Notes under the pieces: generated by a model | Databases searched by the model: none | What the model was told of the DNA's origin: nothing | What the model saw: only the letters and a program-made list of their open reading frames with translations | Source: Neptunicoccus cionae | GTDB taxonomy: Bacteria; Pseudomonadota; Alphaproteobacteria; Rhodobacterales; Rhodobacteraceae | Assembly: GCF_002860325.1 (NCBI RefSeq) | Contig: NZ_PKOJ01000001.1 | Coordinates: 992,001-1,056,000, forward strand | Direction: 5' to 3' | Length of the DNA stretch: 64,000 nt | Made by a program: the position numbers and the translations under genes | Shown: piece by piece, positions 1,575-44,490 of the stretch | Position numbering within the stretch: position 1 is the stretch's first letter | How the letters are laid out: each line of letters starts with the position of its first letter

Positions 1575-1577
1575 ACC

Positions 1578-2744: not shown

Positions 2745-3490
2745 GCATGCTGCTGGAAGTGAATGGCGTCAGCGTTACCTTTGACGGGTTTCGTGCCATT
2801 AATAACCTGTCGATCAACTTCGCCCCGACGGAATTACGCGCGATCATCGGGCCGAACGGGGCGGGCAAGACCACCTTTATGGATATTGTTACCGGCAAGA
2901 CCAAACCGGATGAAGGCACGGTGATCTGGGGAGAGCGGAACATTTCGCTGCTTGGCATGTCCGAAAGCCAGATCGCGCGGGAGGGGATCGGGCGCAAGTT
3001 TCAGAAACCCACCGTGTTCGAGGCCCAGACCGTGCGGCAGAATCTTGCGATGGCGCTGAAGACACCCCGCGGGCCGTTTTCGGTGTTGATGCACAAGAAG
3101 ACCAAGGCAAACGGGGCAAGGATCGAGGCGGTGGCAGAGCAAATCGGACTGGCCGATAGTCTGACCCGCAGCGCCGGAGAGCTGAGCCACGGGCAAAAAC
3201 AATGGCTGGAAATCGGGATGCTGCTGGCGCAGGAGCCCCGCTTGATGCTGGTGGATGAACCCGCTGCGGGCATGACGCCGGAGGAACGGGAAAAAACCAC
3301 CGATATTCTGCGAGAGGCTGCCAAGACCCGCGCTGTTGTGGTGGTGGAACACGATATGGAATTTGTGCGCCGTTTGAACTGTAAGGTGACGGTACTTCAC
3401 GAAGGCTCTGTACTGGCCGAGGGAAGCTTGGATCATGTGACTTCCGACCAGACGGTAATTGATGTTTATTTGGGACGGTCCCATGCTTGA
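2741..3490 (+). CDS. urtD: Urea ABC transporter ATP-binding protein UrtD
   Basis: First ATPase of the urea importer (LivG-like). It has 249 residues. The Walker A motif GPNGAGKT is at 37-44, the signature appears as LSHGQ at 148-152 instead of LSGGQ, and Walker B is LMLVDEP at 168-174. The LSHGQ variant is normal for the LivG/UrtD subfamily. The start ATG at 2741 overlaps the urtC stop (ATGA), and the end overlaps urtE by 8 bp. It is expected to form a heterodimer with UrtE on the cytoplasmic face of UrtB-UrtC. Confidence 0.94.
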   Translation: MSMLLEVNGVSVTFDGFRAINNLSINFAPTELRAIIGPNGAGKTTFMDIVTGKTKPDEGTVIWGERNISLLGMSESQIAREGIGRKFQKPTVFEAQTVRQNLAMALKTPRGPFSVLMHKKTKANGARIEAVAEQIGLADSLTRSAGELSHGQKQWLEIGMLLAQEPRLMLVDEPAAGMTPEEREKTTDILREAAKTRAVVVVEHDMEFVRRLNCKVTVLHEGSVLAEGSLDHVTSDQTVIDVYLGRSHA

Positions 3491-4178
3491 TGTGCAAGAT
3501 GTTACGCTGAAATACGGTCAGAGCCAGATCCTCTTTGATGTCTGTCTGCGGGCCGAAGTCGGGCAGATTACGGCGGTGATGGGCAACAACGGGGTCGGGA
3601 AAACCAGCCTGTTGAAAGCTGTTTCAGGCCGCCATCCGCTGGGCGGCGGATCTGTGGCCGTCGCCGGAGAAGCGGTAACGCTCAGTTCCGCATTTCAGGC
3701 AGCCCATGCGGGTATCGCCTATGTACCCCAAGGCCGCGAAGTGTTTCCCATGATGACAGTGCTGGAAAACCTTGAGACCGGATTTGCCTGCCTGCCTAAG
3801 GCGGATCATAGTATTCCCGACTTCATCTTTGATCTGTTTCCCGTACTCAAGGACATGCAAAAGCGCCGTGGGGGGGATCTGTCAGGTGGACAGCAACAGC
3901 AGCTTGCTATTGCCCGCGCGCTGATCACCAAGCCAAAGGTGCTGCTGCTGGACGAGCCGACAGAAGGCATCCAGCCCAATGTGATCCAGCAAATCGGGGA
4001 CGCGCTGGAAACCCTGCGGGGGCAGGGGGAAATGGCGATTGTTCTGGTGGAACAAAACGCGGATTTTGCCTATCGCATTGCCGATACTTTTGTCGTGATG
4101 GAACAGGGGCGCGTTAAACGCAGCGCTGGTAAGGCTGATTACAGCAAGGATGCTCTGATGGCGGATCTTGCGCTTTAG
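3483..4178 (+). CDS. urtE: Urea ABC transporter ATP-binding protein UrtE
   Basis: Second ATPase of the urea importer (LivF-like). I chose the ATG at 3483, which gives 231 residues, the usual UrtE length. Upstream in-frame TTG (3459) and ATG (3462) would add an unlikely tail inside urtD. Walker A GNNGVGKT is at 34-41, LSGGQ at 133-137 and Walker B LLLDEP at 154-159. The start lies inside the urtD end (8-bp overlap). The TAG stop (4176-4178) interlocks with the TAA stop of the convergent rraA-like gene, so there is no room for a terminator between them. Confidence 0.93.
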   Translation: MLDVQDVTLKYGQSQILFDVCLRAEVGQITAVMGNNGVGKTSLLKAVSGRHPLGGGSVAVAGEAVTLSSAFQAAHAGIAYVPQGREVFPMMTVLENLETGFACLPKADHSIPDFIFDLFPVLKDMQKRRGGDLSGGQQQQLAIARALITKPKVLLLDEPTEGIQPNVIQQIGDALETLRGQGEMAIVLVEQNADFAYRIADTFVVMEQGRVKRSAGKADYSKDALMADLAL

Positions 4179-4666
4179 GCAATGTTCAATGCGTGGGGCG
4201 CGACGATAACACAGTCGCGGTCTGCGTAAATCCAGTTCCCGGATATGACAGTAGCGCCCCCGATCACGACAGGGATACCGCTGCTGGAGGGATTTGGCGC
4301 GGGTCCGCGCCGCGCCGTGGTGCCAAGGGCTTTCACCCCGATTTCCAGCGCATCTATGCCACTGCTGTCTCTTACTGCGCCGTTGATCACGATGCCGGCC
4401 CAGCCGTTGTTTGCAGCTATATCCGCAAGCCTGTCGCCCAACACACCGACCCGCAGAGAGCCTTTACCGTCAACAACCAGAACGCGGCCCTCGCCCTTGG
4501 TTTCAAGGATTTCCAATACGGGGCGATGGTCTTCGAACACCGCGACGGTGACGCAGTCACCGGAAAAACACATGTGCTTTCCGAACGACCGAAACTGAAC
4601 GTCGCAGGTTTGCAGAAGATCGGGGTGTGCATCAAACAGATCGGCAGTCGAAAAGGCTTGTGGCAT
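4175..4666 (-). CDS. RraA-family protein (4-hydroxy-4-methyl-2-oxoglutarate aldolase-like)
   Basis: Member of the RraA / HMG-CHA aldolase fold family. The chosen start (MPQAFSTADL, 4666) gives 163 residues, the usual family length; the longer frame to 4729 would run into the upstream ABC gene. GDRL at residues 77-80 and RD at 99-100 match the G-x20-R-D metal/substrate pattern of class II pyruvate aldolases in this fold. Some relatives instead bind and inhibit RNase E. Being the last gene of a peptide-type ABC operon, 16 bp after the ATPase stop, favours a catabolic aldolase making pyruvate over an RNase E regulator. That is inference from context. The family is often misannotated as a demethylmenaquinone methyltransferase. 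Confidence 0.85.
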   Translation of the reverse strand: MPQAFSTADLFDAHPDLLQTCDVQFRSFGKHMCFSGDCVTVAVFEDHRPVLEILETKGEGRVLVVDGKGSLRVGVLGDRLADIAANNGWAGIVINGAVRDSSGIDALEIGVKALGTTARRGPAPNPSSSGIPVVIGGATVISGNWIYADRDCVIVAPHALNIA

Positions 4667-4682
4667 CGCGGGGGCTTTCTGT

Positions 4683-5693
4683 TCAGGCAGTGGCTTTCGC
4701 AAGCTGCTTTTCAAAGTGATGGCAGGCAACGGCGCGCAGCTCTGCTACGGGTTGCGTGGCGGGTTGCTGCGCGCTGCACTGCTCGCTCGCCAGCGGGCAG
4801 CGCGGATGATAATAACAGCCCGACGGTGGCGACAGGGGGGAAGGGACTTCGCCCTCGATCGTCTCGAAATGTACCAGTTCGTCCGCATCAAGTACCAGTT
4901 TCGGCACACTTCCGAACAGCGCGGACGTATAGGGGTGGGCCGGGGTTCCGAAGACCTCGGCGACAGGCCCCAATTCTACGATCCGCCCCAGATACATGAC
5001 CGCCACGCGGTCGCTGACGTGTTGTACTACGGACAGATCGTGGCTGATGAAGACACAAGTCAGTTCCAGATCGTGGGTCAGTTCCAGAAACAGGTTTATT
5101 ATCTGCGCCTGAATTGACACATCCAGCGATGCGACGGGTTCATCACAGATCAGTACATCGGGTTGCATGGCCAGTGCGCGGGCGATGGCAATGCGCTGTC
5201 GCTGGCCACCGGAAAACTGGTGCGGATAACGGTCTGCCCAGACCGGATCAAGCCCGACCCGTTCAAACCATCCGGCGACATACTCGCGGGCCGCGCCCTT
5301 GGTGGTCAGCCCGTGGGCGATCGGGCCTTCGGCCACGGTGTCGCCCACCTTCATACGGGGATCAAGGCTGGCAAACGGATCTTGAAAGACGGTTTGCACG
5401 CGGGTTGTTACCTTGGTGCCGTTTTCCATCACCGGCTTGCCGTCAATTGTGACGCTGCCGGTCGTCGGGGGGAGGATACCTGCAATCAAACGGCCAAGCG
5501 TGGATTTCCCGCAGCCGGATTCACCAACCAGCCCCAAAGTCTCGCCTTTGCGGATAGACAGGGACACATCTGAGACCGCCCGCACAGAGCGGGTTTCCAC
5601 CTTGCTGCCAAGCTTCGCGGCGATCTTTTCGCCGGTTGTCAGGTTCGGACCGAACAAGCGGGAGACATTGTCGATGCTGAGAAAACTGCTCAT
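4683..5693 (-). CDS. Oligopeptide-type ABC transporter ATP-binding protein (DppF/OppF-like)
   Basis: Second ATPase of a family-5 (dipeptide/oligopeptide/nickel type) ABC importer. The start [10 protein letters not shown] at 5693 is preferred: it overlaps the upstream ATPase stop by 4 bp (ATGA) and gives 336 residues, normal for DppF. Walker [10 protein letters not shown] is at 57-65, followed by a FSGGQRQR signature, a [10 protein letters not shown] Walker B and the C-terminal oligopeptide/dipeptide domain with the Cys-rich [10 protein letters not shown] segment. It works with the ATPase just upstream and two permeases. The substrate cannot be read from the ATPase. Confidence 0.93.
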
Positions 5694-6673
5694 GCGGGAA
5701 CCTCTGCTGTACGGGTAACTGGGTGGAAACAGCGCCAGCCGCGATTGTCTTGGTGGGTCATGTCCGGATCTGTCTTGCACGTGTCCGTAGCGCGGTCACA
5801 ACGGGGTGCAAAGGGGCAGCCCTCGGGCAGGGAGAGCAGAGACGGTGTCGTGCCGGGTATCTGCGTCAACGGAGTGCCCGGGGCTGCCATTGCCGGCAGG
5901 GAGGCGATCAGCCCTGCCGTATAGGGGTGGCGGGGATCGCGCAGCAGGGTCGCCGTCGGCCCCTGTTCCACGATACGGCCCGCGTACATTACTGCCAGTT
6001 TGCTGGCGAGACTGGAGACCACTGCCAGATCGTGGCTGATCCACACCATCGCCGTTCCTGTTTCACGGGCCAGATCGCGCATCTGGAACAGGATTTGTGC
6101 CTGTATCGAGACATCAAGCGCGGTTGTCGGCTCGTCCGCAACAATCACGGCAGGGCGGTGCAATAGCGCAATGGCAATGGCAACACGCTGGCGCATCCCG
6201 CCGGAAAACTCATGGGGATAGGCCCGAAGCCGTTCCTTTGCCGACGGGATGCCCACCTGTGTCAGCAACTCTGCTGCACGCGCCTCGGCTGCCCGTGCAC
6301 CAAGCCGTTCGTGGGCATCAATCGCCATGCGCATCTGCTGTCCAATGGTTAACATCGGGTTCAGCGTGGCTATCGGATCCTGAAAGATCATTGAGATGTC
6401 ATGCCCGCGCAGGCTGCGCAATTCGGCAGCGGAGAGGGTCGTCAGTTCGGTGCCTTTCAGTTTGACCGAACCGCTCACGATCCGCCCCGGTGCATCTACC
6501 AGCCCCAGCAGGGAAAATCCGGTAACGGTCTTGCCCGATCCGCTTTCTCCGACCAGTCCCATGATCTCGCCTTCGGCCAGATCGAAGGAAATCCCGTCCA
6601 CTGCTTTCACCACACCGGCACGGGTGAAGAAATGGGTTTTCAGGTCTTTAACGCTAAGTACGGGATCACTCAT
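5690..6673 (-). CDS. Oligopeptide-type ABC transporter ATP-binding protein (DppD/OppD-like)
   Basis: First ATPase of the importer, 327 residues. It has Walker A GESGSGKT at 42-49, the FSGGMRQRV signature characteristic of DppD/OppD, Walker [13 protein letters not shown], and a C-terminal Cys motif ([14 protein letters not shown]) typical of this subfamily. It overlaps the permease gene upstream (6670-6673) and the second ATPase downstream (5690-5693), each by 4 bp, so the unit is likely translated as a coupled chain. Confidence 0.94.
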
Positions 6674-7551
6674 TTGCGAAGCCTCGGGTTGAATTGGTCG
6701 CGGATCTGGTCGCCAACAAGGTTGATCGCGACAATCAGGATGATCAGGGCAACGCCGGGGTAGAAGGAAATCCAGTAACGGCCGCTCATCATGTAGGGGA
6801 AGCCGTTGGAGATCAGCATCCCGAGCGAGGGTTCCGTAACGGGCAGCCCCAGCCCCAGAAAGCTGAGTGTTGCCTCCAGCGAGATGGAATTGGCAATCTG
6901 CACGGTGGCCACAACGATCAGCGGCGGGGTGCAGTTGGGCAGCAGGTGGCGCAACACCACCAGACGGCCGCTCATCGGTGTTGCAAGGGCTGCTTCGATG
7001 TAGTCCTTGCCGCGCTCCGCCTTGGCCGCGCCATAGGCGGTGCGGGCGAAGTAAGCGTATTGCGCAGCGACCAGCGCCCCGATCAGCTGTGCCTTGCCCT
7101 GACCGAGCAGCGCAACGATCACCAGTGCCAGCAGGATAGCCGGAAACGACAGTTGCAGATCGACAGCCCGCATGATCAGCGTTTCAACCCGCCCGCCGAT
7201 ATAAGCAGCAAGGATGCCAAGCGTCGTCCCGAGACTGAGCGATACAATACCAGCAGCAAGGCCGATCTGGATCGAAATACGCAGGCCATAGAAAATTGCC
7301 GACAACAGGTCACGTCCTTGCGGATCAGTGCCCAGCAGGTGGGTATAACCGCCAGAGCCGACAAAACCGGGGGGGCGGCGGCTGTCCATCAGGGACAGGT
7401 TGGCCATGTCATAGGGGTTCTGCGGCGACACAAAGGCGGCAAACAGTGCCAGCAGCATCATCAGGATCACAACAACCAGTGCGACGACTGCGACTTTATT
7501 CTCGCGGAACTCTGCCCAGAAGCGGCTTAAGGGGGTGCTATTGTTCTTCAT
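6670..7551 (-). CDS. Oligopeptide-type ABC transporter permease (DppC-like)
   Basis: Inner-membrane permease of the importer, 293 residues with about six membrane segments. The N-terminal OppC_N-type segment (WAEFRENKVAVVALVVVILMM) is typical of DppC/OppC. The family motif GTDPQGRDLLSAIFYG sits near residues 75-90, and the EAA loop lies in the last third. It overlaps both neighbours by 4 bp and pairs with the DppB-like permease encoded just upstream. Confidence 0.93.
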   Translation of the reverse strand: MKNNSTPLSRFWAEFRENKVAVVALVVVILMMLLALFAAFVSPQNPYDMANLSLMDSRRPPGFVGSGGYTHLLGTDPQGRDLLSAIFYGLRISIQIGLAAGIVSLSLGTTLGILAAYIGGRVETLIMRAVDLQLSFPAILLALVIVALLGQGKAQLIGALVAAQYAYFARTAYGAAKAERGKDYIEAALATPMSGRLVVLRHLLPNCTPPLIVVATVQIANSISLEATLSFLGLGLPVTEPSLGMLISNGFPYMMSGRYWISFYPGVALIILIVAINLVGDQIRDQFNPRLRK

Positions 7552-8522
7552 GATGTCGCCCCTTGACGCACGCGCGGATCAATCAGGGCAAAGACCAGAT
7601 CAATCACAAAGTTGATGGTAACAAAGAGGAACGCCACAAGGATCAGGTAGGCCACCATGACAGGGCGGTCCAGAACGCCGATACTGTCGATGATCAGCTT
7701 GCCCACACCGGGCCATGAAAAGATCGTTTCCGTCACAACCGCAAAGGCCAGTGTCGAGCCGAGTTCGAGACCAAAGACCGTCAGGATCGGGATCGAGATC
7801 AGTTTCAACAGGTGGCGGCGCAGGATTGTGCCTTCGGAAATACCCGCAGCGCGGGCGAATTTGATGGTGTCGGTCAGCATGATCTCGCGGGTTCCGGCAC
7901 GGGCCAGTCGGATCATCATGGCCAGCTTGAACAGCGCCAGATTTACCGCTGGCAGCACGATATGGGACAACCCGTCAAGCGTCGGGAAAGACCACGCCAC
8001 GCCCCAGATTTCTACGGTTTCACCGCGTCCACCAGCGGGCAGCCATCCAAGGTGAACGGCAAAGAACAGGATCAGGATCAGGCCAACCCAGAAAGAGGGC
8101 ACCGAAAACCCGAGCACCGAAACCCCCATGATGGTTTTGGAAATCCAGCTTTCGGGACGATAGCCTGCATAAACGCCAAGGCTGACGCCCAGAACCGTGG
8201 CCGAAATGACAGAGATCAGGACCAGTTCCAGCGTTGCGGGCAGGCGGCCGCCGATCAGTTCAAGAACGGGTACGTTATAGACAAACGACCGGCCCAGATC
8301 GCCTTGCAGCAGATTGCCCATGAAGATGAAGTATTGTTTGTACAAAGGAAGGTCGAGGCCAAGCCGCCGGATCGCAGCTTCGCGGATTTCCTGTGTGGCC
8401 TCTGGCGGAATGACAATGTCGATAGGGTTGCCGATGGCATACACACCGCAGAATACGATGACCGACATAACAGCCATGACAACGACGGCCTGCAAAAAAC
8501 GTTGGATGATGAAGCCGAGCAT
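7548..8522 (-). CDS. Oligopeptide-type ABC transporter permease (DppB-like)
   Basis: First permease of the importer. The start MLGFIIQRFLQ at 8522 is preferred because DppB proteins begin directly with the first membrane helix; the frame extends to 8546. This gives 324 residues. Visible features are the N-terminal helix, the periplasmic 'RLGLDLPLYKQYFIFMGNLLQGDLGRSF' region typical of DppB, and a C-terminal ATVVTETIF-like EAA region. It overlaps the DppC-like gene by 4 bp. The gap to the binding-protein gene (stop at 8594) is about 70 bp and holds no obvious strong terminator. Confidence 0.92.
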   Translation of the reverse strand: MLGFIIQRFLQAVVVMAVMSVIVFCGVYAIGNPIDIVIPPEATQEIREAAIRRLGLDLPLYKQYFIFMGNLLQGDLGRSFVYNVPVLELIGGRLPATLELVLISVISATVLGVSLGVYAGYRPESWISKTIMGVSVLGFSVPSFWVGLILILFFAVHLGWLPAGGRGETVEIWGVAWSFPTLDGLSHIVLPAVNLALFKLAMMIRLARAGTREIMLTDTIKFARAAGISEGTILRRHLLKLISIPILTVFGLELGSTLAFAVVTETIFSWPGVGKLIIDSIGVLDRPVMVAYLILVAFLFVTINFVIDLVFALIDPRVRQGATS

Positions 8523-8593
8523 GGGTGCTCCCTTTGGGCCAAGCAAAGGCCGGGCGGCATCTCTGCTGCCCGGCCCTGTGTTAAACGAGACGA

Positions 8594-10183
8594 TTAATTC
8601 GCAGGTTTGATAAAGAACGCCAGTGTGTCTTCGTCAAAGCGTGGGGTGAATTCCACCGAACCCGCTTTGGCGCCCCAGACGGTCTGAAGTTGCACCAGAG
8701 AGATATAGGCTTTGTCGGCCATAACCTTTTCCATTGCTTCTTCGTAGGTTGCGCGGCGTTCGTCCTCGTCCATCATGGTTGCGCCGGTTTGCAGAAGACG
8801 ATCCACATCGTCATTCTTGTAGGCGATGCGGTTGAACGCTCCCAGCTTTACCTCAGGATTGTTGGAGTGTGCCAGACCGCCCAATGTGTAGGATGCCTCG
8901 CCTGTCAGTGTGCCCCAACCGTTCATGAACATGGAGTATTCCAGACGGGACTGGGCAGGGAAATACACGGTCTTGGAAACTGCGTTGACGTTGGTGTCGA
9001 TGCCCACTTGGGTCAGCATCTGGCCAAGGCCCTGACAGATTGCGCCGTCGCCTGGAAGGCGGTCGCTTGTGCAGTAGAGATCAACCTCGAACCCGTCCGC
9101 ATAGCCTGCTTCAGCCAGCAGTTCTTTTGCTTTGGCAGGATTGTATTCCGGCATCGGGATGTCTTCGCTGGAGCCGAAGAACCCTGGAGGCATCATTTGG
9201 TTGGCCGGTTTCCCAAGACCTTCCAGCACGATTTCAACCATGGTCTCACGGTCAATTGCATAGTCGATGGCCTGACGGACTTTCAGATCGCGCAGCGGGT
9301 TTTCTGCCAGTTCCGAACCGTCTTTGGCCCGTACCAGAGGCGTCTTCTCACGCTGGTCCAGTTGCAGGTTCATCACATAAACACTGTCACCCTTGATCGC
9401 ATCGACGCTCGAATCACGCTCAAGCGCGAGATAATCCACGGAAGATACATAGTTGATCACATCAACCTGACCGGCTTTCAGTGCAGCCAGACGGGAACTG
9501 TCGTTAGGGATTTCCTTGCGGATCACTTTTTCCCATGCGCCTTTGCCACGCCAGTAGTCGTCGTTGCGTTCTAGTACAAGATCGCCCTTTGGCTCCCAGC
9601 TTACGTATTTGTAAGGGCCGGTTCCGATCGTTGCCGCACCGGAATTGAAGCCTTCTGCTGCGGTTTCGGGGGTGGAATAATCCGCCGCAGCCTCGGAAGA
9701 GACAATGAACAGGCGGATGAAATCGTTTGGCAGGGTCGCTGCCTGACCGTCTGTGTGAATGTGGATTGTGTGAGGGTCGATGATGTCGACACCGGCAACA
9801 CGGCGCACATAGATGGCGGTCGTTGTCGGGCCGGTGACAACAGGAATACGTTCGATCGAGAATTTAACGTCTTCTGCATCAAAGTCCGAACCGTCATGGA
9901 ACTTCACGCCTTCGCGCAGTTTGAACTCCCATGTGTCCTCGTCCACGGGTTTCCAGCTTGTAGCCAGACCCGGTTCGATTTGCAGGTCGGTGCCCGACCA
10001 GACTAGCGTGTCAAAAATATGCTTGGCCGCTTCCGCGTGCGATCCAAGTGCGGAGAAATGCGGATCCATTGATTCCGGTCCGCCGCGCACACCCATTGTC
10101 AGTGTTTGCGCTGATGCGGCGGCAGCCGCAGTCAGCCCAATCGTGACGGCAAGTGGTGCAAGGAACTTTGTATACTTCATCAT
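8594..10183 (-). CDS. Periplasmic substrate-binding protein, family 5 (peptide-type ABC transporter)
   Basis: Captures the substrate of the adjacent ABC importer in the periplasm. The start MMKYTKFLAP at 10183 is chosen because GGGAAGGGAAA sits just before it and a standard Sec signal peptide follows (hydrophobic stretch then AAAASAQ, cleavage after about residue 24). That gives 529 residues, normal for SBP_bac_5. The mature protein begins TLTMGVRGGPESMDPHFSAL, the usual family opening, and 'ATSWKPVDEDTWEFKLREGVKFHDG' is the classic family-5 signature. The gene opens the minus-strand operon and shares its regulatory region with the divergent marR-like gene. Family 5 also covers nickel, heme, glutathione, opine and oligosaccharide binders, so peptide specificity is not proven. 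Confidence 0.92.
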   Translation of the reverse strand: MMKYTKFLAPLAVTIGLTAAAAASAQTLTMGVRGGPESMDPHFSALGSHAEAAKHIFDTLVWSGTDLQIEPGLATSWKPVDEDTWEFKLREGVKFHDGSDFDAEDVKFSIERIPVVTGPTTTAIYVRRVAGVDIIDPHTIHIHTDGQAATLPNDFIRLFIVSSEAAADYSTPETAAEGFNSGAATIGTGPYKYVSWEPKGDLVLERNDDYWRGKGAWEKVIRKEIPNDSSRLAALKAGQVDVINYVSSVDYLALERDSSVDAIKGDSVYVMNLQLDQREKTPLVRAKDGSELAENPLRDLKVRQAIDYAIDRETMVEIVLEGLGKPANQMMPPGFFGSSEDIPMPEYNPAKAKELLAEAGYADGFEVDLYCTSDRLPGDGAICQGLGQMLTQVGIDTNVNAVSKTVYFPAQSRLEYSMFMNGWGTLTGEASYTLGGLAHSNNPEVKLGAFNRIAYKNDDVDRLLQTGATMMDEDERRATYEEAMEKVMADKAYISLVQLQTVWGAKAGSVEFTPRFDEDTLAFFIKPAN

Positions 10184-10244
10184 TTTCCCTTCCCGTTGGA
10201 GGATGGCTGCGTCGTGCCCCATCCGAAGAATTATTTGAAACGGT

Positions 10245-10258
10245 GTTCCATTTGGAAC
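10245..10258. promoter_or_regulatory. Operator candidate 1, GTTCCATTTGGAAC
   Basis: A 14-bp near-perfect dyad (arms GTTCCA/TGGAAC, 2-base spacer). It lies just downstream of the predicted transcription start of the minus-strand ABC operon. A close copy occurs 53 bp away. The arrangement suggests binding by the adjacent MarR-type regulator, which is inference. Confidence 0.6.
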
Positions 10259-10268
10259 TTGTAATCCC

Positions 10269-10297
10269 ACAATGTGGTGAGTTATCATCGTAGTCAA
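10269..10297 (-). promoter_or_regulatory. Sigma-70-like promoter of the ABC operon
   Basis: Read on the minus strand: -35 TTGACT (10297-10292), 17-bp spacer, -10 CATTGT (10274-10269). The -10 lies inside a small dyad CCACA-A-TGTGG (10267-10277). It points at the binding-protein gene starting at 10183. The two operator candidates lie just upstream of the -35 and just downstream of the start, the usual layout for repression. Confidence 0.5.
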
Positions 10298-10313
10298 GTT
10301 CAATTTGGAACTT
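10296..10313. promoter_or_regulatory. Operator candidate 2, AAGTTC-N6-GAACTT
   Basis: The core GTTCAATTTGGAAC (10298-10311) differs from operator 1 by one base. The flanks extend it to perfect 6-bp arms AAGTTC/GAACTT. It abuts the -35 of the minus promoter and lies 30 bp before the marR-like start, so one site could control both directions. Confidence 0.6.
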
Positions 10314-10343
10314 AGTTATGTGCATTGAGGGATTGATTGTATT

Positions 10344-10934
10344 ATGTCAGCTGCAAGCGGCGCTTCTGAACAAAAGATTGGCACTTCTGAATCCGCACAG
10401 GATTTGGATGATCTGCCGGACATGCTTGAGGCAAAGTTGTGGGAGAACCCGTGCCCGTTTACCTTCCGGATCAACTATCTCGCGCTGCTGTATAACACGC
10501 CGCTTTATTCATGGATTCAGGACACATACGGGTTGAAGCGGCATGAGTACGTCGTGATCTATTCACTGGCCTTGGCCAATGGTGGTAGCGCGCGGGATAT
10601 ATCGCGCACGTCCGGTTTTCCCAAAAATACCCTGAGCCGCGCGGTCAAGCGGCTGGAGCTTATGGGGCTGCTGGAGGAACGCAGCAAGGCACCGGGTGGC
10701 GGTCGCAGGCAGGCACTGCGCCTGTCTGAAAAAGGCTGGAAGCTGTTCAACGAAACCGTGCCCGTGTTCGAATCCTATGAAGAAAGAATGCTGACTCCCC
10801 TGTCCAAAGGGGAGCGCCAGATCCTGTTCGAATTGATGTCCAAAGTCGTTGTCGGGGCAGAGGACTGGGCGGATGATCTGCCCCAAGCCGGAGCAAAGGG
10901 CTCCACCAGAAATACCAAAGGAGAGACGCAATGA
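10344..10934 (+). CDS. MarR-family transcriptional regulator
   Basis: Winged-helix DNA-binding protein of 196 residues. The central part (about 65-150) has the MarR pattern: KRHEYVVIYSLALANGG, a recognition helix around FPKNTLSRAVKRLELMGLLEE, then a basic wing with APGGGRRQALRLS. The N-terminal ~40 residues are acidic and longer than in minimal MarR proteins. The ATG at 10344 is used; no clearly better start is visible. It is the first gene of a tightly packed six-gene plus-strand unit and lies opposite the ABC operon. The natural reading is a local repressor sensing the imported compound and binding the two operators at 10245-10313 (inference). Confidence 0.88.
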   Translation: MSAASGASEQKIGTSESAQDLDDLPDMLEAKLWENPCPFTFRINYLALLYNTPLYSWIQDTYGLKRHEYVVIYSLALANGGSARDISRTSGFPKNTLSRAVKRLELMGLLEERSKAPGGGRRQALRLSEKGWKLFNETVPVFESYEERMLTPLSKGERQILFELMSKVVVGAEDWADDLPQAGAKGSTRNTKGETQ

Positions 10935-11650
10935 ATGTTGCCGATATGAACTGGCGCGATGTCGAGGCGGCCGCCGCCAGAGATCCGCGCTGTATCCTGC
11001 CGATCGGATCGACGGAGCAACACGCACAGCTTTCCCTTTGCGTGGATATGATTCTCGCAGAGAAGGTCGCCACAGACGCGGCGGCGCCTCTGGAAATTCC
11101 GGTGTTTCCGGTGATGCCCTACGGCTTGGCTCCTTACTTTAATGCCTATCCGGGAACGATCTGCCTTCGGGTGGAAACCCTGATGGCGGTTGTGCGCGAT
11201 ATTGTGGCTTCTTTGCGCCGCTCCGGTTTTCGCCAGATCCTGATTGTGAACGGGCACGGTGGTAACAATCCGGTCGGTGCGCTGGCGCAGGAATTGCTTT
11301 CGGAATACGGCGATATTTCGATCAAGTTCCACAACTGGTGGAATGCGCCCCAGACATGGGCGAAAATACAGGAAACCGATCCGTCAGGCTCTCATGCCAA
11401 CTGGATGGAAAACTTCCCGTGGACCCGACTCGCCCATGCGGCGGCACCGGAAGGGGAAAAGCAGGGTGTGGATATGGCGCTGATGAAAGCTGCACCACCT
11501 GCGCAAGTCCGCGAGATGCTGGGCGATGGTTCCTTTGGGGGACGCTGGCAGCGCCCTGATGATGAGATGCAGGCGATCTGGGATGTTGGCGTTGCTGAAA
11601 CGCGCGCTGCGCTGGAAGGGCCATGGCCGGAGCTTGGCAAAAATGACTGA
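10931..11650 (+). CDS. Creatininase-family amidohydrolase
   Basis: Cytoplasmic metal-dependent amidohydrolase of 239 residues. The opening LPIGSTEQHAQLSLCVDM carries the Glu/His and Asp ligands of the creatininase family, and VNGHGGN near residue 108 carries the second His. Relatives open cyclic amides (creatinine), hydrolyse formamides, or act in cofactor pathways such as mycofactocin and riboflavin/F420. Its setting with a peptide-type importer, an M20 peptidase and two NAD(P)-dependent oxidoreductases suggests an unknown lactam or amide, not creatinine: no creatinase or sarcosine oxidase gene is nearby. The ATG overlaps the marR-like stop by 4 bp. Confidence 0.88.
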   Translation: MNVADMNWRDVEAAAARDPRCILPIGSTEQHAQLSLCVDMILAEKVATDAAAPLEIPVFPVMPYGLAPYFNAYPGTICLRVETLMAVVRDIVASLRRSGFRQILIVNGHGGNNPVGALAQELLSEYGDISIKFHNWWNAPQTWAKIQETDPSGSHANWMENFPWTRLAHAAAPEGEKQGVDMALMKAAPPAQVREMLGDGSFGGRWQRPDDEMQAIWDVGVAETRAALEGPWPELGKND

Positions 11651-12662
11651 ACCGGTTCTGATCTGGGGCGCCGGGGCAATCGGTGGCATTCTGGGGGCCT
11701 ATTGGGCGCGGGCGGGTGTGCCGGTGCTTATGGTCGATATCGTGCCTGAACATGTGACGGCCTGCGCCACTACGGGTCTGTCAATCGAAGGGCCGGTCGA
11801 GACCTTTACGCAAGTTGTGCCATGTGTAACGCCGGAGCAATTGCAAGGCACCTACAGCCGCATTGTTCTGGCTGTTAAAGCACAGGCAAGCGAAGCTGCG
11901 CTGGAGCAGTTGAAACCGCATCTGACGGCGGACGGTTACGTCCTGTCTGCGCAGAACGGGTTGAACGAACACACAATCGCGCGGCACGTCGGGCCGGAGC
12001 GCACGATGGGTGCTTTTGTAAACTACGGTGCGGACTGGATCGGGGCAGGGCGCATCCTGTTTGGCAACCGCGGGGCAGTGGTGGTCGGGGAGATCGACAA
12101 CAGCATCCGTCCGCGCACGCAAGAGATGTTCGAGCTCTTGCAGATTTTCGAACCGGATGCCGTGCTGAGCGATGACATCTGGGCCTATCTCTGGGGCAAG
12201 CTCGGCTACGGGGCCATGTTGTTTGCAACCGCTCTGACGCCTGACAGTATGACCGAAAATTTCGCAGATCCCGCGCGGGGACCGGCACTGATGGGGCTGG
12301 CACGGGAAGTCATGCAAACAGCCGTGGCTGAAGGGGTCGATCCCAAACCCTTTAACGGGTTCGAACCGGCAGCTTTCATGCCGGGTGCCGGTGATGCTGC
12401 CGCGCTCAAAAGCCTGTCGGATCTTGCGGATTTCAACTCCAAAACCGCCAAGACCCATACGGGGATTTACCGTGATCTGGCGGTGCGCAAACGCAAGACA
12501 GAAGTGGACCCGCAAGTGGGCGCGGTGGCTGAAATCGCCGCGAAGCACGGAATTGACACACCTTTACTGCGGCGTCTGGTGGAACTGATCCACGATATTG
12601 AAGACGGACGGCGCGAGATGTCGCAAGAAACCTTCCACGAACTGACCAAGGTGCTGGCATGA
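11643..12662 (+). CDS. Ketopantoate reductase (PanE/ApbA)-family oxidoreductase
   Basis: NAD(P)H-dependent 2-oxoacid reductase-like protein. The start MTEPVLIWGAGAIGG at 11643 gives 339 residues and overlaps the amidohydrolase stop by 8 bp. Residues 7-14 form the Rossmann GAGAIGG loop. Later come the family's 'LSAQNGLNE' segment and a C-terminal helical domain with 'LWGKLGYGAMLFATAL'. Family members reduce 2-dehydropantoate, but many paralogues in catabolic clusters act on other 2-oxo or 3-hydroxy acids. With no panB or panC nearby, a catabolic role here is more likely than pantothenate synthesis. Confidence 0.85.
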   Translation: MTEPVLIWGAGAIGGILGAYWARAGVPVLMVDIVPEHVTACATTGLSIEGPVETFTQVVPCVTPEQLQGTYSRIVLAVKAQASEAALEQLKPHLTADGYVLSAQNGLNEHTIARHVGPERTMGAFVNYGADWIGAGRILFGNRGAVVVGEIDNSIRPRTQEMFELLQIFEPDAVLSDDIWAYLWGKLGYGAMLFATALTPDSMTENFADPARGPALMGLAREVMQTAVAEGVDPKPFNGFEPAAFMPGAGDAAALKSLSDLADFNSKTAKTHTGIYRDLAVRKRKTEVDPQVGAVAEIAAKHGIDTPLLRRLVELIHDIEDGRREMSQETFHELTKVLA

Positions 12663-13402
12663 GCGGACGTATTGCACTTGTTACCGGGGTCGTCGGTGGT
12701 ATCGGCGCGGCGATTGCCGCCCGTCTGGCCGCTGAAGGTGCCAAGGTTGTTGTGACCGATCTGGCCGGTGAGGGGTTAACCCGAGCGGCAGAGCAACTGG
12801 GTCTGCCTGCTGTTGCTGCCGATCTGACCGACACCGCATCCGTGCAGCAGATGGTGCAGCAGATCACCGCCGAACATGGCGCGCCGGACATTCTGGTGAA
12901 TGCGGCAGGGGGCGTGTGCAATCAGGTGGGCACGCCGCTGGAAGAGGTGCAGCCTGAAAACTGGCACCGGATTTTCGCAGTCAACGTTGATGCCACGCTT
13001 TACCTTTCACAAGCCCTTGTTCCGGCCATGAAAACCGCGGGCTGGGGACGGATCGTCACGATCAGTTCAGGTGCCGGATTGCGCCCGAGCCTGACAGGCA
13101 TTCACGCCTATACTGCCGCCAAACATGCTCTGGTCGGGCTGACTAAACAGCTTAGCCTTGAACTCGGCCAGCACGGGATCACGGTGAATTCCATCGCACC
13201 CGGTTTCATCCTGTCCAATCCTGCCACACAACGCCAGTGGGAAGCTTTCGGGCCAGAGGGACAGGCACAACTGGTTAACCGGATTCACACCCGCAAACTT
13301 GGCACTCCCGAAGATATTGCCGCCGCCGCCGCCTTTCTGACCGGATCAGAGGCGGGATGGATCACAGGCCAGATCCTGAGCGTTGATGGCGGCGTAACCT
13401 GA
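12659..13402 (+). CDS. SDR-family NAD(P)-dependent oxidoreductase
   Basis: Classical short-chain dehydrogenase/reductase of 247 residues, normal for the family. The cofactor loop TGVVGGIGAAIA is at about 9-20, NAAGG near residue 80, the catalytic Ser near ISSGAG, and YTAAK (Tyr and Lys) near 151-155. It ends with ILSVDGGVT. The enzyme oxidises or reduces an alcohol/ketone; the substrate is unknown. It overlaps the preceding gene by 4 bp (ATGA), and the M20 peptidase starts 11 bp later. Confidence 0.92.
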   Translation: MSGRIALVTGVVGGIGAAIAARLAAEGAKVVVTDLAGEGLTRAAEQLGLPAVAADLTDTASVQQMVQQITAEHGAPDILVNAAGGVCNQVGTPLEEVQPENWHRIFAVNVDATLYLSQALVPAMKTAGWGRIVTISSGAGLRPSLTGIHAYTAAKHALVGLTKQLSLELGQHGITVNSIAPGFILSNPATQRQWEAFGPEGQAQLVNRIHTRKLGTPEDIAAAAAFLTGSEAGWITGQILSVDGGVT

Positions 13403-13413
13403 AGAGAAGACCT

Positions 13414-14826
13414 ATGACAGACCCAGTTGTTTCCCGTGCTCTGGAGCAAGAGCCACGCTTGATCGAAACCCTGAAAACGCTTGTTGCCTGTCCTTCGGTC
13501 GGGGCTGATCCGGCGATGGCACAGGGTATGGAAGACGCCCGCAAGCTGATCGAATCCCAGCTGTCGGATATGGGTTTCGAGAACATGCAAAGGCTGACGC
13601 CGCCGGACGGCAGCGGAGAGCCGGCGCTTTACGGCGAACGTATGGACGCGCCCGGAAAGCCGGTGATACTGGTCTATGCCCATTATGATGTGCAGCCTGC
13701 GGATCCGCTGGAAAAATGGGACACGCCGCCTTTTGAAGCGGTAGAGCGGGACGGCCGCCTGTTCGGGCGCGGGATTTCCGATGACAAGGCGCCGATGCTG
13801 ATCGCGCTCGAATCCCTTGCGGCCTTCATCAAAGTCGAAGGCAAGCTGCCGGTGAACGTCAAATTGCTGATCGAAGGGGAAGAGGAAACAGGTTCGCCTT
13901 CACTGCCCGGCATTCTGGAAACCCACTGTGAATTGCTGGCCGCGGATGCGGTGCTCTCAGCGGACGGGGCCCGGTGGCGGCCTGATCTGGTGGCGCTGAA
14001 TGTCGGGTCGCGCGGGAACACAGGGTTCGAGGTGCGGGTGCAAACCGCCGCGCAAGACCTGCATTCGGGCCGTTATGGCGGGATTGTTGCCAACCCGCTA
14101 CATGTACTGTCGTCGTTGATCGCAAGCCTGCATGACGAAAACGGGCATATCGCGGCGGAGGGGTTCTATGACGGGGTGGCAGAGCCGACAGAGGCAGAGC
14201 GCGCGGAAATCGCTGCGATTCCTTTTGATGAAAAGGCGACATTCGGAGCGATCGGTGCGCGGCCCAGCGGTGAGGCGGGCTATAACAGTCTGGAACGGTT
14301 GTGGATGCGGCCGACACTGGATGTGAACGGCATGTGGGGCGGTTACATCGGGGCGGGGTCCAAAACGGTGATCCCGAACGAAGCTTTTGCCAAGCTGACC
14401 ATGCGGCTGGTGCCCGGACAGGATCCCCAGAAGGCAAAAGAGGCGGTGATCAACCATTTGCGCCACCGCCTGCCGCCCGAAGCGACACTGGAAATCATCG
14501 GAGAACGCGGGCAGGGCGGGGCTTATGCGGTGCCCGCGGACCATCCCTTGCTGGCAGCAGCCGTTGCCGCGTTGAAACATACCTCGGGCGAGACGCCGCT
14601 GAAGGTACGCATTGGGGCATCCCTGCCGCTGACCGAGATTGTCTCGCGTATTCTGGGGCTTGATACGGTGATGTTCTCTTTTGCATTGTCGGATGAAAAC
14701 TTTCACGCGCCGAATGAATTCTTCCGCCTTTCGTCGATCCCTGACGGGCTGGCGTCCTGGGTGCAAATCCTGCGAGAGATTGCAAAACTGTCCCCTGCGG
14801 ACTTTGCCGCGTACCGACGCAAGTGA
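13414..14826 (+). CDS. M20-family dipeptidase/amidohydrolase
   Basis: Zinc-dependent exopeptidase of 470 residues, matching the carnosinase/CNDP-like branch of M20. Metal and catalytic residues are seen in HYDVQPADPLEKWDTPPF (His, Asp), GRGISDDKAP, and EGEEETGSPS (Glu-Glu). A dimerisation (lid) domain lies between about residues 210 and 390. It would hydrolyse a dipeptide or N-acyl amino acid in the cytoplasm, which fits the peptide-type importer of the same locus. It starts 11 bp after the SDR stop with AGAGAAGA upstream, and it overlaps the next gene by 4 bp (GTGA). Confidence 0.9.
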   Translation: MTDPVVSRALEQEPRLIETLKTLVACPSVGADPAMAQGMEDARKLIESQLSDMGFENMQRLTPPDGSGEPALYGERMDAPGKPVILVYAHYDVQPADPLEKWDTPPFEAVERDGRLFGRGISDDKAPMLIALESLAAFIKVEGKLPVNVKLLIEGEEETGSPSLPGILETHCELLAADAVLSADGARWRPDLVALNVGSRGNTGFEVRVQTAAQDLHSGRYGGIVANPLHVLSSLIASLHDENGHIAAEGFYDGVAEPTEAERAEIAAIPFDEKATFGAIGARPSGEAGYNSLERLWMRPTLDVNGMWGGYIGAGSKTVIPNEAFAKLTMRLVPGQDPQKAKEAVINHLRHRLPPEATLEIIGERGQGGAYAVPADHPLLAAAVAALKHTSGETPLKVRIGASLPLTEIVSRILGLDTVMFSFALSDENFHAPNEFFRLSSIPDGLASWVQILREIAKLSPADFAAYRRK

Positions 14827-15692
14827 CCGGTCCGGCAGAGGTAAACAACAGATACGGCGCGACCCTGCTTGTGGCGGCGGCCGGATTGTACACGGCTGAT
14901 GTCACTGTTCTTCGGTTCCTTTCGCCAGAGGTTCCTTTCGCGCAGATCATCTTTTTCCGCTCGCTGTGCCAGCTTGTGATTGTGGCGCTCTGGATCGGCT
15001 GGAAAAGCCCCGCGCTTTATGGTTCGTCGCGCTGGGGCAAGCTGGTCCTGCGGGGGCTGACAAGCCTTGTTTGCTGGTGGCTCTACTATGCGAGCTTCCA
15101 AAAGCTTGACCTTGCGCTGGCTTCGACCCTAACGTTTACGACCTCTTTATTTGTCGTTGGTCTGGCGCCGCTGCTGTTGGGCGAAAAGATAAACATGTTG
15201 CGCAAACTGACCACGGGGTTCGGTTTCTTCGGCGTAATCCTTGCCAGCGGGGTAAGCGGGTTGGTGCTGGAAACCGGCGTGCTTCTGGGGCTTGGCTCTG
15301 CGCTGGCGGCGGCGGTACTGATCTTTCAAAACAGGGTTCTGGCCCGCACCGAGCACACCGCAACAATCATGTTCTGGATCGGCCTTGTTGCTACGGCAGG
15401 AACCTTGCCCGGTGCCGTGACAGGCTGGACCGGTGTTACCCTTCCCGATCTTGCGATCCTTGTAACGGCAGGTCTGCTTGGCACGCTCGGGATGTTGTTC
15501 ACGGTTGAAGCCTATCGCTATGGCGAGGTTTCGGCCCTTGCAACCTTTCCCTACATCCGGCTGTTTTTTGCGCTGGCCATCGGATATTTCCTCTTTGCAG
15601 AAATGCCCACCTTACGCGAATTGATCGGGGCCGCGATTATCGTGGTCTGCGGTCTGGCCGCCCGTGAACACCGCCGCCCTGTCACCCCCTGA
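14823..15692 (+). CDS. DMT-superfamily (EamA) transporter
   Basis: Inner-membrane protein of 289 residues with ten hydrophobic segments arranged as two EamA repeats. Members of this superfamily often export amino acids or metabolites. The GTG start at 14823 overlaps the peptidase stop (GTGA), and no better ATG lies close by, so it belongs to the same operon. As the last gene it may relieve accumulation of an intermediate (inference). The substrate is unknown. Confidence 0.87.
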   Translation: MTGPAEVNNRYGATLLVAAAGLYTADVTVLRFLSPEVPFAQIIFFRSLCQLVIVALWIGWKSPALYGSSRWGKLVLRGLTSLVCWWLYYASFQKLDLALASTLTFTTSLFVVGLAPLLLGEKINMLRKLTTGFGFFGVILASGVSGLVLETGVLLGLGSALAAAVLIFQNRVLARTEHTATIMFWIGLVATAGTLPGAVTGWTGVTLPDLAILVTAGLLGTLGMLFTVEAYRYGEVSALATFPYIRLFFALAIGYFLFAEMPTLRELIGAAIIVVCGLAAREHRRPVTP

Positions 15693-15756
15693 TCGACCAT
15701 TACCTGCCTGCGGATTCTGGTATAGACTGGCCGCGAACAAGACAGGGTACTGAACG

Positions 15757-16644
15757 TTGGACAAACTATCGGTCATGCAAGCCTTCCGCCGCATTGTGGA
15801 GCGGGGCAGTTTTGCCCGTGCGGCAGAGGATCTTGGGGTGTCCCCTGCGCTGTTAAGCCGTGAAGTCAAACTTCTGGAAGAAAGCCTTGGCTGCACTTTG
15901 TTAACACGCACCACGAGGTCCATGGCGCTGACGGACGCGGGGCGGCTGTATTACGACGAAGCCTCAGGCATCCTGAACGCTGTCAGCGGTGTAGAAAACC
16001 GTATTCGCGAAGGAGCAGGTGCGGTGCAGGGGCATCTGCGAGTGAATGCTTCCAGTTCGTTCGGGCAGACGGTAATCGCGCCTTTCCTGCCGGAGTTTCT
16101 GGCGGCTTACCCCGATCTGGAACTGACCCTGTCTCTCGATGACAGGGTGGTGGATATGGTGGAAGGCGGTTTTGATGTGTCGATCCGGATCCGCTCTGCC
16201 ATGCCGGATTCGGCACTTGTCGCCCGCAAGATCGGGACCACGCGGCAACGGATTTTTGCGGCGCCGTCCTATCTGGAAAAAGCCGGCGTTCCGCAAAGCC
16301 CTGCTGATATTGCCGCTCACAGGGTGGTCGGGTTCCTTTTAGCGGATCATCTGACAAACTGGGACTTACGGAATGGCAGTGCTAACCAGCGGATCGAGGT
16401 GTCTCCGGCGGTGCGGGTGGGAAACAGCCTTGTGTTGCGGGATTTACTGGCCTCGGGGTACGGGATCGGCACCTTGCCCGATTTTGTGTCCCGCGATGCA
16501 GAAAGCAGCGGCGCGCTTGTTCGGGTGCTGCCGGATTGGGAACTGCCCGCACCGGAAATTTTCGCGATCACCACGTCGCGGTTGGGTATGGATGCGCGGG
16601 TCACAGCCTTTCTGGATATCCTGCGTAAGGCCCTTACACCGTGA
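15757..16644 (+). CDS. LysR-family transcriptional regulator
   Basis: LTTR of 295 residues. A TTG start at 15757 is chosen: it yields the typical opening MDKLSVMQAFRRIVERGSF, while the next ATG (15775) would trim the first helix of the winged helix-turn-helix. The DNA-binding domain covers residues 1-60 (AAEDLGVSPALLSREVKLLEESLGCTLL). The rest is a periplasmic-binding-protein-like effector domain (about 90-290). It resembles the branch that often controls nearby quinone reductases and oxidoreductases. wrbA starts about 100 bp downstream in the same direction and is a possible target. Confidence 0.9.
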   Translation: MDKLSVMQAFRRIVERGSFARAAEDLGVSPALLSREVKLLEESLGCTLLTRTTRSMALTDAGRLYYDEASGILNAVSGVENRIREGAGAVQGHLRVNASSSFGQTVIAPFLPEFLAAYPDLELTLSLDDRVVDMVEGGFDVSIRIRSAMPDSALVARKIGTTRQRIFAAPSYLEKAGVPQSPADIAAHRVVGFLLADHLTNWDLRNGSANQRIEVSPAVRVGNSLVLRDLLASGYGIGTLPDFVSRDAESSGALVRVLPDWELPAPEIFAITTSRLGMDARVTAFLDILRKALTP

Positions 16645-16749
16645 CATTCTTCAACGGGCGTAAACTATGAAGTGACAGGGAGGCGGTTAATCCCGCACGG
16701 TCCTTTGGCCATTTTCAAGGCAATGAAACTTTTGCCCCATGAGGATACC

Positions 16750-17373
16750 ATGACCCGAGTTCTTGTTCTTTACTATTCCAGCTATGGCCACGTCCGCGCA
16801 TTGGCCGAGGCAGAGGCCGAAGGTGCCCGCAGCGTCGCGGGCACTCGCGTTGACCTGCGCCGCGTGCCTGAAACCGTCCCCGAAGCCGTGCGCAAGAAGG
16901 CCGGTTTTGTGGCAGACGACACCCCGCTGGCCAGCCCCGCAGATCTGGAAAACTATGACGCCATCCTGTTTGGTACACCGACGTTATTCGGAATGATGGC
17001 CGGACAAATGAAATCCTTTCTGGATCAGGCGGGGGGGCTGTGGGCGCGCAATGCGCTTGTTGGGAAGGTGGCCGGTGTCTTTACCTCCACCGGTTCACAG
17101 CACGGCGGGCATGAGGCCACACTCCTGTCCTCGCAAATTCCGCTCCAGCACTTCGGTATGCTGATTGCGGGTATGCCCTACAGTTTTGAAGGCCAGACGA
17201 CAGCCACAGAAATCGTTGGCGGTGCCCCTTACGGCGCAGGCACGATTGCAGGGGCAGACGGGTCGCGCAGCCCGACAGAGACCGATCTTGCCGGAGCCCG
17301 TTTTCAAGGCGCCCATGTGGCTGAAATTGCCGCAAGACTGGCAGCGGGCGCGGTTGATCAGGCCGCAGCCTGA
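16750..17373 (+). CDS. wrbA: NAD(P)H:quinone oxidoreductase WrbA
   Basis: Flavodoxin-like FMN enzyme doing two-electron reduction of quinones. The ATG at 16750 ([14 protein letters not shown]) is chosen over 16672 because the FMN-binding first strand must lie at the N terminus. This gives 207 residues, close to the usual ~200. Visible motifs are the phosphate-binding loop YSSYGH, the [19 protein letters not shown] segment and TSTGSQHGG, all typical of WrbA. It stands between a LysR regulator and an EamA transporter. Confidence 0.93.
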
Positions 17374-17402
17374 CGGTTCCGAACGGGCGCCCCTGCCTTT
17401 CC

Positions 17403-17457
17403 ACCGGCCAGATGGCAGACGCCCGATCCGGCTTTTGTCACTGGCCGGTTCCCTTTT
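17403..17457 (+). terminator. Possible terminator/attenuator after wrbA
   Basis: Perfect 9-bp inverted arms ACCGGCCAG (17403-17411) and CTGGCCGGT (17441-17449) with a 29-base loop, followed by TCCCTTTTTTA. The loop is long, so termination is likely but not certain. It lies just before the next EamA gene. Confidence 0.4.
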
Positions 17458-17475
17458 TTAAAGAGGAAGTTTCCC

Positions 17476-44463: not shown

Positions 44464-44490
44464 ATCATCCTGCCGGAGCAGGTTACGAAT

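Follow-up and report, generated by a model that had tools for sequence, protein, structure and literature searches.

A divergent twelve-gene cluster in Neptunicoccus cionae with a probable role in the import and breakdown of a peptide-like amide

In the alphaproteobacterium Neptunicoccus cionae, a stretch of 64,000 nucleotides (contig NZ_PKOJ01000001.1, positions 992,001 to 1,056,000; hereafter the window) carries twelve genes arranged as two divergent units around a shared control region. The minus unit encodes a peptide-type ABC importer with its substrate-binding protein (SBP) and an RraA-type protein. The plus unit encodes a MarR-family regulator, a creatininase-family metallohydrolase (referred to here as CRE), a PanE-like dehydrogenase, an SDR-family oxidoreductase, an M20 metallodipeptidase and an EamA-family exporter. 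The twelve genes probably act together as one co-regulated unit that breaks down a peptide-like amide. Judged from the genes and their arrangement, a narrower reading is also favored, if with less assurance, in which the cluster would be an inducible divergon for the catabolism of one dipeptide-like compound whose amide is cyclic or otherwise resistant to peptidases; the exact order of the pathway steps given below is doubtful. Visible in the sequence itself are the set of genes, the conservation of their linkage and, between the two units, a twin palindrome that is both unique and conserved. The locus is a regulator-controlled importer-plus-catabolism divergon, which is a known kind. An earlier note on this DNA had described twelve divergent genes, six on each strand, around a control region of 160 bp, and that description was confirmed: Pfam and NCBIfam scans verified all twelve genes and the families named for them, and relatives and reading frames were used to re-set the gene limits of SBP (10183), the PanE-like gene (11643 rather than 11526), OppF (5693) and RraA (4666).

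Co-occurrence of CRE and the PanE-like enzyme over 394 genomes sampled from the family is the strongest evidence that both enzymes belong to one pathway. The CRE clade is carried by 32 of these genomes, all of which have a PanE-clade match at E ≤1e-140 located 2-97 bp beyond a CRE match (distances measured between profile matches), and no PanE-clade match at that cut-off was found in the 362 family genomes without CRE. At most seven candidates for CRE and five for PanE were scored per genome. A PanE-clade partner is present for 34 of the 35 CRE matches in the 32 genomes. The Fisher test of this co-occurrence is uncorrected for relatedness. Over 89 loci, CRE is followed directly by PanE at 55 of 84 CRE matches, an arrangement that is beyond chance.

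Gene order was followed in a family set of 20 fetched regions from G012, a genome of the same genus, and 19 family genomes, three of which (L162, L165 and L166) are probably the same records as L019, L033 and L020. CRE, PanE and SDR are all present in each of the 20 regions, with PanE immediately after CRE every time, and in 19 of them the importer is divergent from the regulator and CRE; the exception, L166, has divergent ATPases and no detected regulator. Linkage of the two units in relatives had been proposed as a test of the earlier note, and it held in these 19. The same divergent arrangement occurs on plasmids of Octadecabacter, Microvirga and Sagittula. The part that recurs is the importer, the regulator, CRE, PanE, SDR and a peptidase rather than all twelve genes, RraA being left out because it is not annotated in the Octadecabacter plasmid copy and is found in only 5 of the 20 family-set loci. 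Among individual copies, the PanE-like gene of the Microvirga ossetica plasmid (L011) is annotated merely as an N-terminal-domain protein, and that locus has an RraA gene (45% identical) beyond an aldehyde dehydrogenase. In G696 (L165), one in-frame TGA was reported within the PanE-clade match.

The cluster is patchily distributed. Two of 33 genomes of the genus carry the CRE clade (that of the window and G012), while any CRE match occurs in six of the 33, those outside the clade at 29-41% identity; among 385 genomes of the class, 20 carry the clade. A scan of species genomes yielded at least 578 related stretches, and the titles of the best 80, which were kept, include Alphaproteobacteria, Deinococcota (Trueperaceae), Verrucomicrobia, Chloroflexota, Acidobacteria, Gemmatimonadetes and Bacillota, with many metagenome bins. 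Named hosts of the cluster include Octadecabacter antarcticus 307 and Sagittula stellata E-37. Plasmid records at ≥50% identity come from Deinococcus, rhizobia and Klebsiella, and the patchy spread together with the plasmid copies points to horizontal transfer. The copies on the Klebsiella pneumoniae IncFIB plasmid NZ_CP031809.1 (L013 and L186) consist of a GntR-type importer and creatininase unit interrupted after CRE by insertion sequence elements.

A repeat search of the control region identified two palindromes, GTTCCATTTGGAAC and GTTCAATTTGGAAC, spaced 53 bp apart. Allowing one mismatch at most, GTTCNATTTGGAAC occurs twice in the window as opposed to 0.06 times in shuffled sequence, and the exact form occurs twice in the whole 4.29 Mb genome, both times in the control region (the reversed control has no match). 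In five further MarR-type genomes, all eight matches lie upstream of this cluster. Loci were then scored for a pair of TTCC-N4-GGAA sites, each with no more than one mismatch, spaced 50-56 bp. The pair is present at 9 of 12 type-A MarR loci and 7 of 13 type-B MarR loci (which differ in importer order), and is found at none of 23 GntR-type loci, none of three loci lacking a detected regulator, and in none of 100 shuffles per region. Single exact sites are distributed similarly (8/12, 8/13, 1/23 and 0/3, respectively). Among family-set loci, all five of MarR type have a pair at 53 bp, which is found in none of the 14 GntR-type loci and not in the one locus without a regulator. Since the pair is found in MarR-type and not in GntR-type loci, it travels with this MarR and not with the catabolic genes as such. 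Its distribution supports a model in which a single MarR switch would serve both units, and the putative shared operators argue against the plus and minus units answering different signals.

MarR-controlled divergent catabolic operons are a known general kind of system, and the features of that kind, a MarR gene, divergent units and palindromic sites in the region between them, are all found here. The regulator differs from that kind in scoring 21 bits with the HpaR model, compared with a cut-off of 121 bits, and in a twin palindrome spaced 51-54 bp. Promoter-like sites within 10150-10400 number two where 0.5 are expected (plus strand, 10259-10288; minus strand, 10370-10341), which is suggestive at most; over 4100-16700, consensus scans gave no excess of promoters (4 sites, 4.6 expected) or terminators (8 sites, 12.1 expected).

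CRE is a member of the creatininase superfamily by its fold and first set of metal-site residues. Its AlphaFold2 model has a mean predicted local distance difference test (pLDDT) score of 92.8, and creatininase-family chains account for all 26 Foldseek matches at E ≤0.001. Glu29, His31, Asp39, His109 and Glu160 are invariant in the 44-row clade alignment, and the first four of these align with the creatininase metal site and are presumed to be metal ligands. CRE shares this fold and these residues with the family that comprises creatininase, MftE, IolN and ArfB, but it falls below the NCBIfam cut-offs for all four (84.4 vs 235 bits for TIGR04448 creatininase, 61.5 vs 172 for TIGR03964 MftE, 51 vs 245 for IolN and 23 vs 180 for ArfB) and has a clade signature of its own around HAxWMENFPWTR. 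Where creatininase has NGHxEN, CRE has NGHGGN, and all 44 rows have Gly110 and Gly111. Creatininase Glu122, which we take to be the glutamate at work in the NGHxEN motif, is thus replaced by Gly throughout the clade; creatininase E122Q mutants are among the structure entries in the Foldseek listing. Because of this replacement, CRE is not creatininase (EC 3.5.2.10) itself. That it opens a ring is not established. It is probably a metalloenzyme of the creatininase fold that acts on another substrate.

The PanE-like protein has the fold of the ketopantoate reductase/D-mandelate dehydrogenase family (model pLDDT 91.6), its top Foldseek matches being D-mandelate dehydrogenase and ketopantoate reductases. 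Asn144 and Lys225 are invariant in a 31-row alignment and Glu326 is conserved in at least 90% of rows; all three, which the family also has, are presumably catalytic. By its residues the protein does not match ketopantoate reductase: these catalytic residues are kept, but the substrate Asn and Ser are replaced. Four positions after the catalytic Lys, where the aligned PDB chain has Asn, the protein has Gly, and Asn never occurs there in the 31 rows; Gly313, invariant in the same rows, occupies the Ser position. We take the replaced Asn and Ser to be ketopantoate-binding residues of ketopantoate reductase. The TIGR00745 ketopantoate reductase model gave a near miss (136.9 vs a cut-off of 141.35 bits, scored on the over-long frame from 11526). 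A further difference from ketopantoate reductase is that, among the 394 genomes, the clade has strong members in CRE-bearing ones only. The nearest fold, that of D-mandelate dehydrogenase, which is a 2-hydroxyacid dehydrogenase, supports the oxidation of a hydroxy acid.

The M20 protein has CNDP2, carnosinase and DUG1 as its nearest solved relatives, with PDB 4ruh, 2zof and 3dlj as matches for the CNDP2/carnosinase type, and these matches together with intact metal-site motifs, kept at ≥90% in 36 aligned copies and presumed to act as in those enzymes, place it among CNDP-type dipeptidases. It scores above the cut-off of subfamily model NF006579 (412 vs 327 bits) and just under that of equivalog NF006053 (432 vs 441). 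Retention of the putative metal and catalytic residues in CRE and M20 supports a catabolic role. The RraA-type protein exceeds the cut-off of NF006875 (172 vs 136 bits) and contains D-x20-R-D, which we take to be the motif of RraA and class II pyruvate aldolases. The R-D pair and the above-cut-off family scores place it in that superfamily, and an aldolase or oxaloacetate decarboxylase activity is predicted for it. PMC5065237 describes the role of Arg123/Asp124 as such a catalytic/metal pair. RraA proteins encoded at or close to the corresponding position in seven GntR-type loci, of which two are one record, share 56-64% identity with that of the window. Of the three RraA-family genes of its own genome, one other is 30% identical to it and the remaining one gave no tblastn match at 1e-3; weak matches in L053, L075 and L079 (33-35% identity) fall in a different subgroup and are not counted as linked RraA. 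The earlier note had the pathway end in cleavage to pyruvate, which is not established given that RraA occurs in some members only.

Less can be read from the remaining proteins. The SDR protein is FabG-like in a general way, which is uninformative. The importer has the full set of SBP and B, C, D and F components of Opp/Dpp/Gsi-type family-5 systems, but in NCBIfam its SBP lies under the equivalog cut-offs of GsiB, DppA and OppA; the nearest PDB chains are 5u4o (an unnamed SBP), 1uqw (YliB/GsiB) and 6ofq (HbpA).

Hydrolases at the end of the pathway vary among relatives. In the family set, M20 is present in 13 of the 20 loci and an isoaspartyl peptidase in the other seven, never both; over 82 loci, 37 have M20 only, 19 isoaspartyl peptidase only, one both and 25 neither (Fisher p 9e-6, uncorrected for relatedness). 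Such rare co-occurrence suggests that the two peptidases occupy one slot. An M32 carboxypeptidase occurs in 13 of the 20 family-set loci, every one GntR-type, and EamA follows M20 in all five MarR-type loci and stands at the far end of one other locus. Loci were profiled on stop-to-stop frames, a procedure by which 6 of the 89 earlier loci lose CRE to antisense shadow families; these families were excluded from the family-set tally. In the 66 of the 89 loci with enough flank, SBP was counted in 56, SDR in 53, PanE in 46, M20 in 28, M32 in 20, isoaspartyl peptidase in 17, a PuuE-like protein in 15, amidase and EamA in 11 each, an aspartoacylase-like protein in 5, and amidohydrolase, aldehyde dehydrogenase and RraA in 4 each. 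In relatives, M20 is joined or replaced by hydrolases that belong to the peptidases or amidases, which fits the amide or peptide chemistry that had been proposed for the cluster. The "polysaccharide deacetylase" of other lineages, of which one copy (L034) was tested, has as its nearest structures 3rxz (a polysaccharide deacetylase by annotation), 3qbu (a peptidoglycan-deacetylase entry) and PuuE allantoinase, which puts it closest to the branch with cyclic-amide hydrolases. In a CRE tree of 82 rows from 109 loci (identical rows, short-flank loci and the six CRE-losing loci having been dropped), the window and 11 other MarR/M20 loci form one supported clade (99/92).

The recurring CRE-PanE-SDR core, the peptide-type importer and the exchangeable peptidases form the basis of the best explanation. 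They suggest a compound with a constant part, handled by the core, that is amide-linked to a variable amino acid released by one or another peptidase. Without inducer, MarR dimers would occupy both palindromes, which at 53 bp (about five helical turns) would lie on the same face of the DNA, and repress both divergent promoters. The inducer would be the substrate or an early intermediate. SBP and OppBCDF would bring the compound into the cell, where CRE, acting as a metal-dependent amidohydrolase, may open the resistant amide. The M20 dipeptidase would then split the product and free an amino acid, a step that in other lineages could be performed by the isoaspartyl peptidase, mostly with a PuuE/imidase-like hydrolase, and EamA would export any surplus of the freed amino acid. 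The PanE-like enzyme and SDR are predicted to oxidize the leftover hydroxy acid to a 2-oxo acid, which RraA, where present, may cleave or decarboxylate towards pyruvate.

Several observations weigh against this account. Ring opening and dipeptide hydrolysis leave the need for both SDR and a PanE-like enzyme unaccounted for, and RraA and EamA are not constant across members. The PanE cut-off of 1e-140 was chosen after the scores were seen, and four genomes that lack CRE have weaker members of the clade (3e-120 in G501; also G456, G572 and G756). CRE can be used outside this pathway: G735 has a second CRE copy without a PanE-clade partner, and in three Verrucomicrobiota loci (L066, L072 and L080), where the family may have another use, CRE stands beside unrelated genes without PanE or an importer. 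On two plasmids of Deinococcus, importer and other genes share one strand rather than diverging; in one of these, from D. deserti, an annotated RraA-family gene lies between PanE and M32. As for the regulator, 9 of 25 MarR-type loci lack the pair at the set tolerance, one of 23 GntR-type loci has a single exact site, and the presumed binding of MarR to the palindromes is drawn from their co-occurrence. One of the 82 loci holds M20 and isoaspartyl peptidase together, and 13 of the 66 full-flank loci have none of the seven hydrolase families counted.

Two alternatives name more specific compounds, and each is unlikely to be right as it stands. The first is the use of cyclic dipeptides (diketopiperazines), in which CRE would open the ring to a linear dipeptide, M20, M32 or isoaspartyl peptidases would finish the task, and the two oxidoreductases would work on side chains that carry modifications or on the hydroxy or amino acids set free. 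A cyclic-amide-hydrolase fold, dipeptidases and a peptide-type importer do occur together here, and one relative (L084) has an aminopeptidase-P-type M24 enzyme. According to the abstract of PMC3852281, degradation of diketopiperazine rings is little known, and a hydantoin- and dihydropyrimidine-hydrolysing Rhizobium strain degrades three of them. Cyclic dipeptides, however, would not require the fixed pair of PanE-like enzyme and SDR, sequence evidence linking CRE to this ring is absent, and creatininase goes unmentioned in related literature among the matches listed. The second, about equally unlikely, is the use of an N-(2-hydroxyacyl)- or N-(2-oxoacyl)-amino acid or an opine-like conjugate, which the CNDP2-type M20 would split, leaving PanE-like enzyme and SDR to oxidize the hydroxy acid and RraA to cleave the oxo acid. 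CNDP2 both makes and splits N-lactoyl-amino acids, and this alternative draws on the nearness of M20 to CNDP2 and carnosinase, that of the PanE-like enzyme to D-mandelate dehydrogenase, and the RraA subgroup linked to the cluster. It provides no clear job for CRE, the gene that defines the clade.

The others fare worse. Generic peptide scavenging by a broad importer and broad peptidases, with the oxidoreductases merely carried along, is improbable: several peptidase families do join the cluster, but a specific compound is indicated by the co-occurrence and adjacency of CRE and PanE and by a private palindrome pair that has no other copy in the genome. Degradation of pantothenate, itself a dipeptide-like amide, or of a pantoyl amide might be suggested by the family membership of PanE, with the enzyme running in reverse; with Gly at the Asn position and Gly313 at the Ser position, both presumed to bind ketopantoate, this is very improbable. 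Variation at the RraA and EamA ends could be taken to mean that two unrelated units have an intergenic region in common by chance, a notion deserving almost no credence, as it is refuted at the level of linkage by the divergent units of 19 of 20 relatives and by conservation of the palindrome pair.

Some candidate pathways were rejected. Cyanophycin-dipeptide scavenging loci have a transporter and an isoaspartyl peptidase, as do some relatives of the cluster, but the window has M20 instead; CRE, PanE and SDR have no evident role in such loci as described in PMC10206079, and the word creatininase does not occur in that paper. Cyanophycinase was not among the annotations of the plasmid regions inspected, and no profile search for it was made. 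Vitamin B2 breakdown was set aside, as PMC12746152 contains no creatininase or ketopantoate word. With regard to defence, CRE, M20 and RraA, the three proteins tried, matched no PADLOC family. Mycosporine degradation was considered because IolN, of the creatininase family, has a cyclic diketone as its substrate; a literature link was not found among the matches listed, and the idea stays speculation.

Of the pathway set out in the earlier note, then, the dedicated import-and-breakdown unit stands, supported by the conserved linkage and the twin putative operator, while ring opening by CRE, the sequence in which the enzymes act and cleavage to pyruvate are not established. The note knew of no described pathway with this gene set, and none was found among the matches listed from open-licence PubMed Central literature, judged by title and start of abstract.

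Features of the cluster are given in Table 1. Seven junctions are overlaps, six of 4 bp and that of CRE and PanE of 8 bp, and 16 bp separate RraA from OppF. The genes urtB, urtC, urtD and urtE of a urea ABC transporter (75-4178; all products above NCBIfam cut-offs) converge on RraA with a 4-bp overlap (4175-4178), and UrtA is expected to the left of the window. A contribution of this transporter to a creatinine route was dropped from consideration because the CRE clade is not creatininase. Directly past the cluster (15757-18351) are genes for a LysR regulator, a WrbA-type NAD(P)H:quinone oxidoreductase and a second EamA protein, for which no sign of cluster membership was seen, no test having been aimed at that. 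A tandem pair of tRNA-Gly(GCC) genes lies on the minus strand at 44285-44565.

Table 1. Features of the divergent cluster, in window coordinates
Feature	Position	Strand	Evidence and remarks
RraA-type protein (class II pyruvate aldolase/oxaloacetate decarboxylase superfamily)	4175-4666	-	PF03737, 127 bits; last gene of minus unit, facultative
OppF/DppF-type ATPase	4683-5693	-	PF00005 + PF08352
OppD/DppD-type ATPase	5690-6673	-	PF00005 + PF08352
OppC-type permease	6670-7551	-	PF00528 + PF12911
OppB-type permease	7548 to about 8522	-	PF00528 + PF19300; start approximate, picked from reading frame
Family-5 SBP	8594-10183	-	PF00496, 300 bits; N-terminus resembles signal peptide (by eye)
Shared control region, 160 bp	10184-10343		between SBP ATG 10183 and MarR ATG 10344
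Putative operator 1, palindrome GTTCCATTTGGAAC	10245-10258		repeat search
Putative operator 2, palindrome GTTCAATTTGGAAC	10298-10311		repeat search; 53 bp from operator 1
MarR-family regulator	10344-10934	+	PF12802
CRE (creatininase-family metallohydrolase, distinct clade)	10931-11650	+	PF02633, 154 bits
PanE-like NAD(P)-dependent 2-hydroxyacid dehydrogenase (predicted function)	11643-12662	+	PF02558 + PF08546
SDR-family oxidoreductase	12659-13402	+	PF13561, 199 bits
M20 metallodipeptidase, CNDP2/carnosinase type	13414-14826	+	PF01546 + PF07687
EamA-family (DMT) exporter	14823-15692	+	two PF00892 stretches

Catabolic clusters that lack an assigned substrate and recur across phyla mark dissolved organic nitrogen compounds whose fate is unexplained. 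It is conceivable, though we would not count on it, that this cluster encodes an undescribed complete breakdown route for a common natural cyclic-amide or hydroxyacyl-amino-acid compound, plentiful enough to have favored a dedicated pathway across Alphaproteobacteria, Deinococcota and other phyla. The signature enzymes of such a route would be a new ring opener of the creatininase family and, as an obligate partner, a PanE-like 2-hydroxyacid dehydrogenase, and its peptidase ends would be interchangeable to suit different amino-acid partners. The CRE-PanE pair is a clean signature for the cluster, the private palindrome pair a ready reporter for finding the inducer, and the natural exchange of peptidase modules narrows the candidate chemistry. 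If the pathway were solved, many genes now named creatininase family, 2-dehydropantoate 2-reductase and polysaccharide deacetylase could be renamed correctly. As its kit of genes recurs in many distantly related bacteria, the cluster is a promising place to look for a new nutrient pathway.

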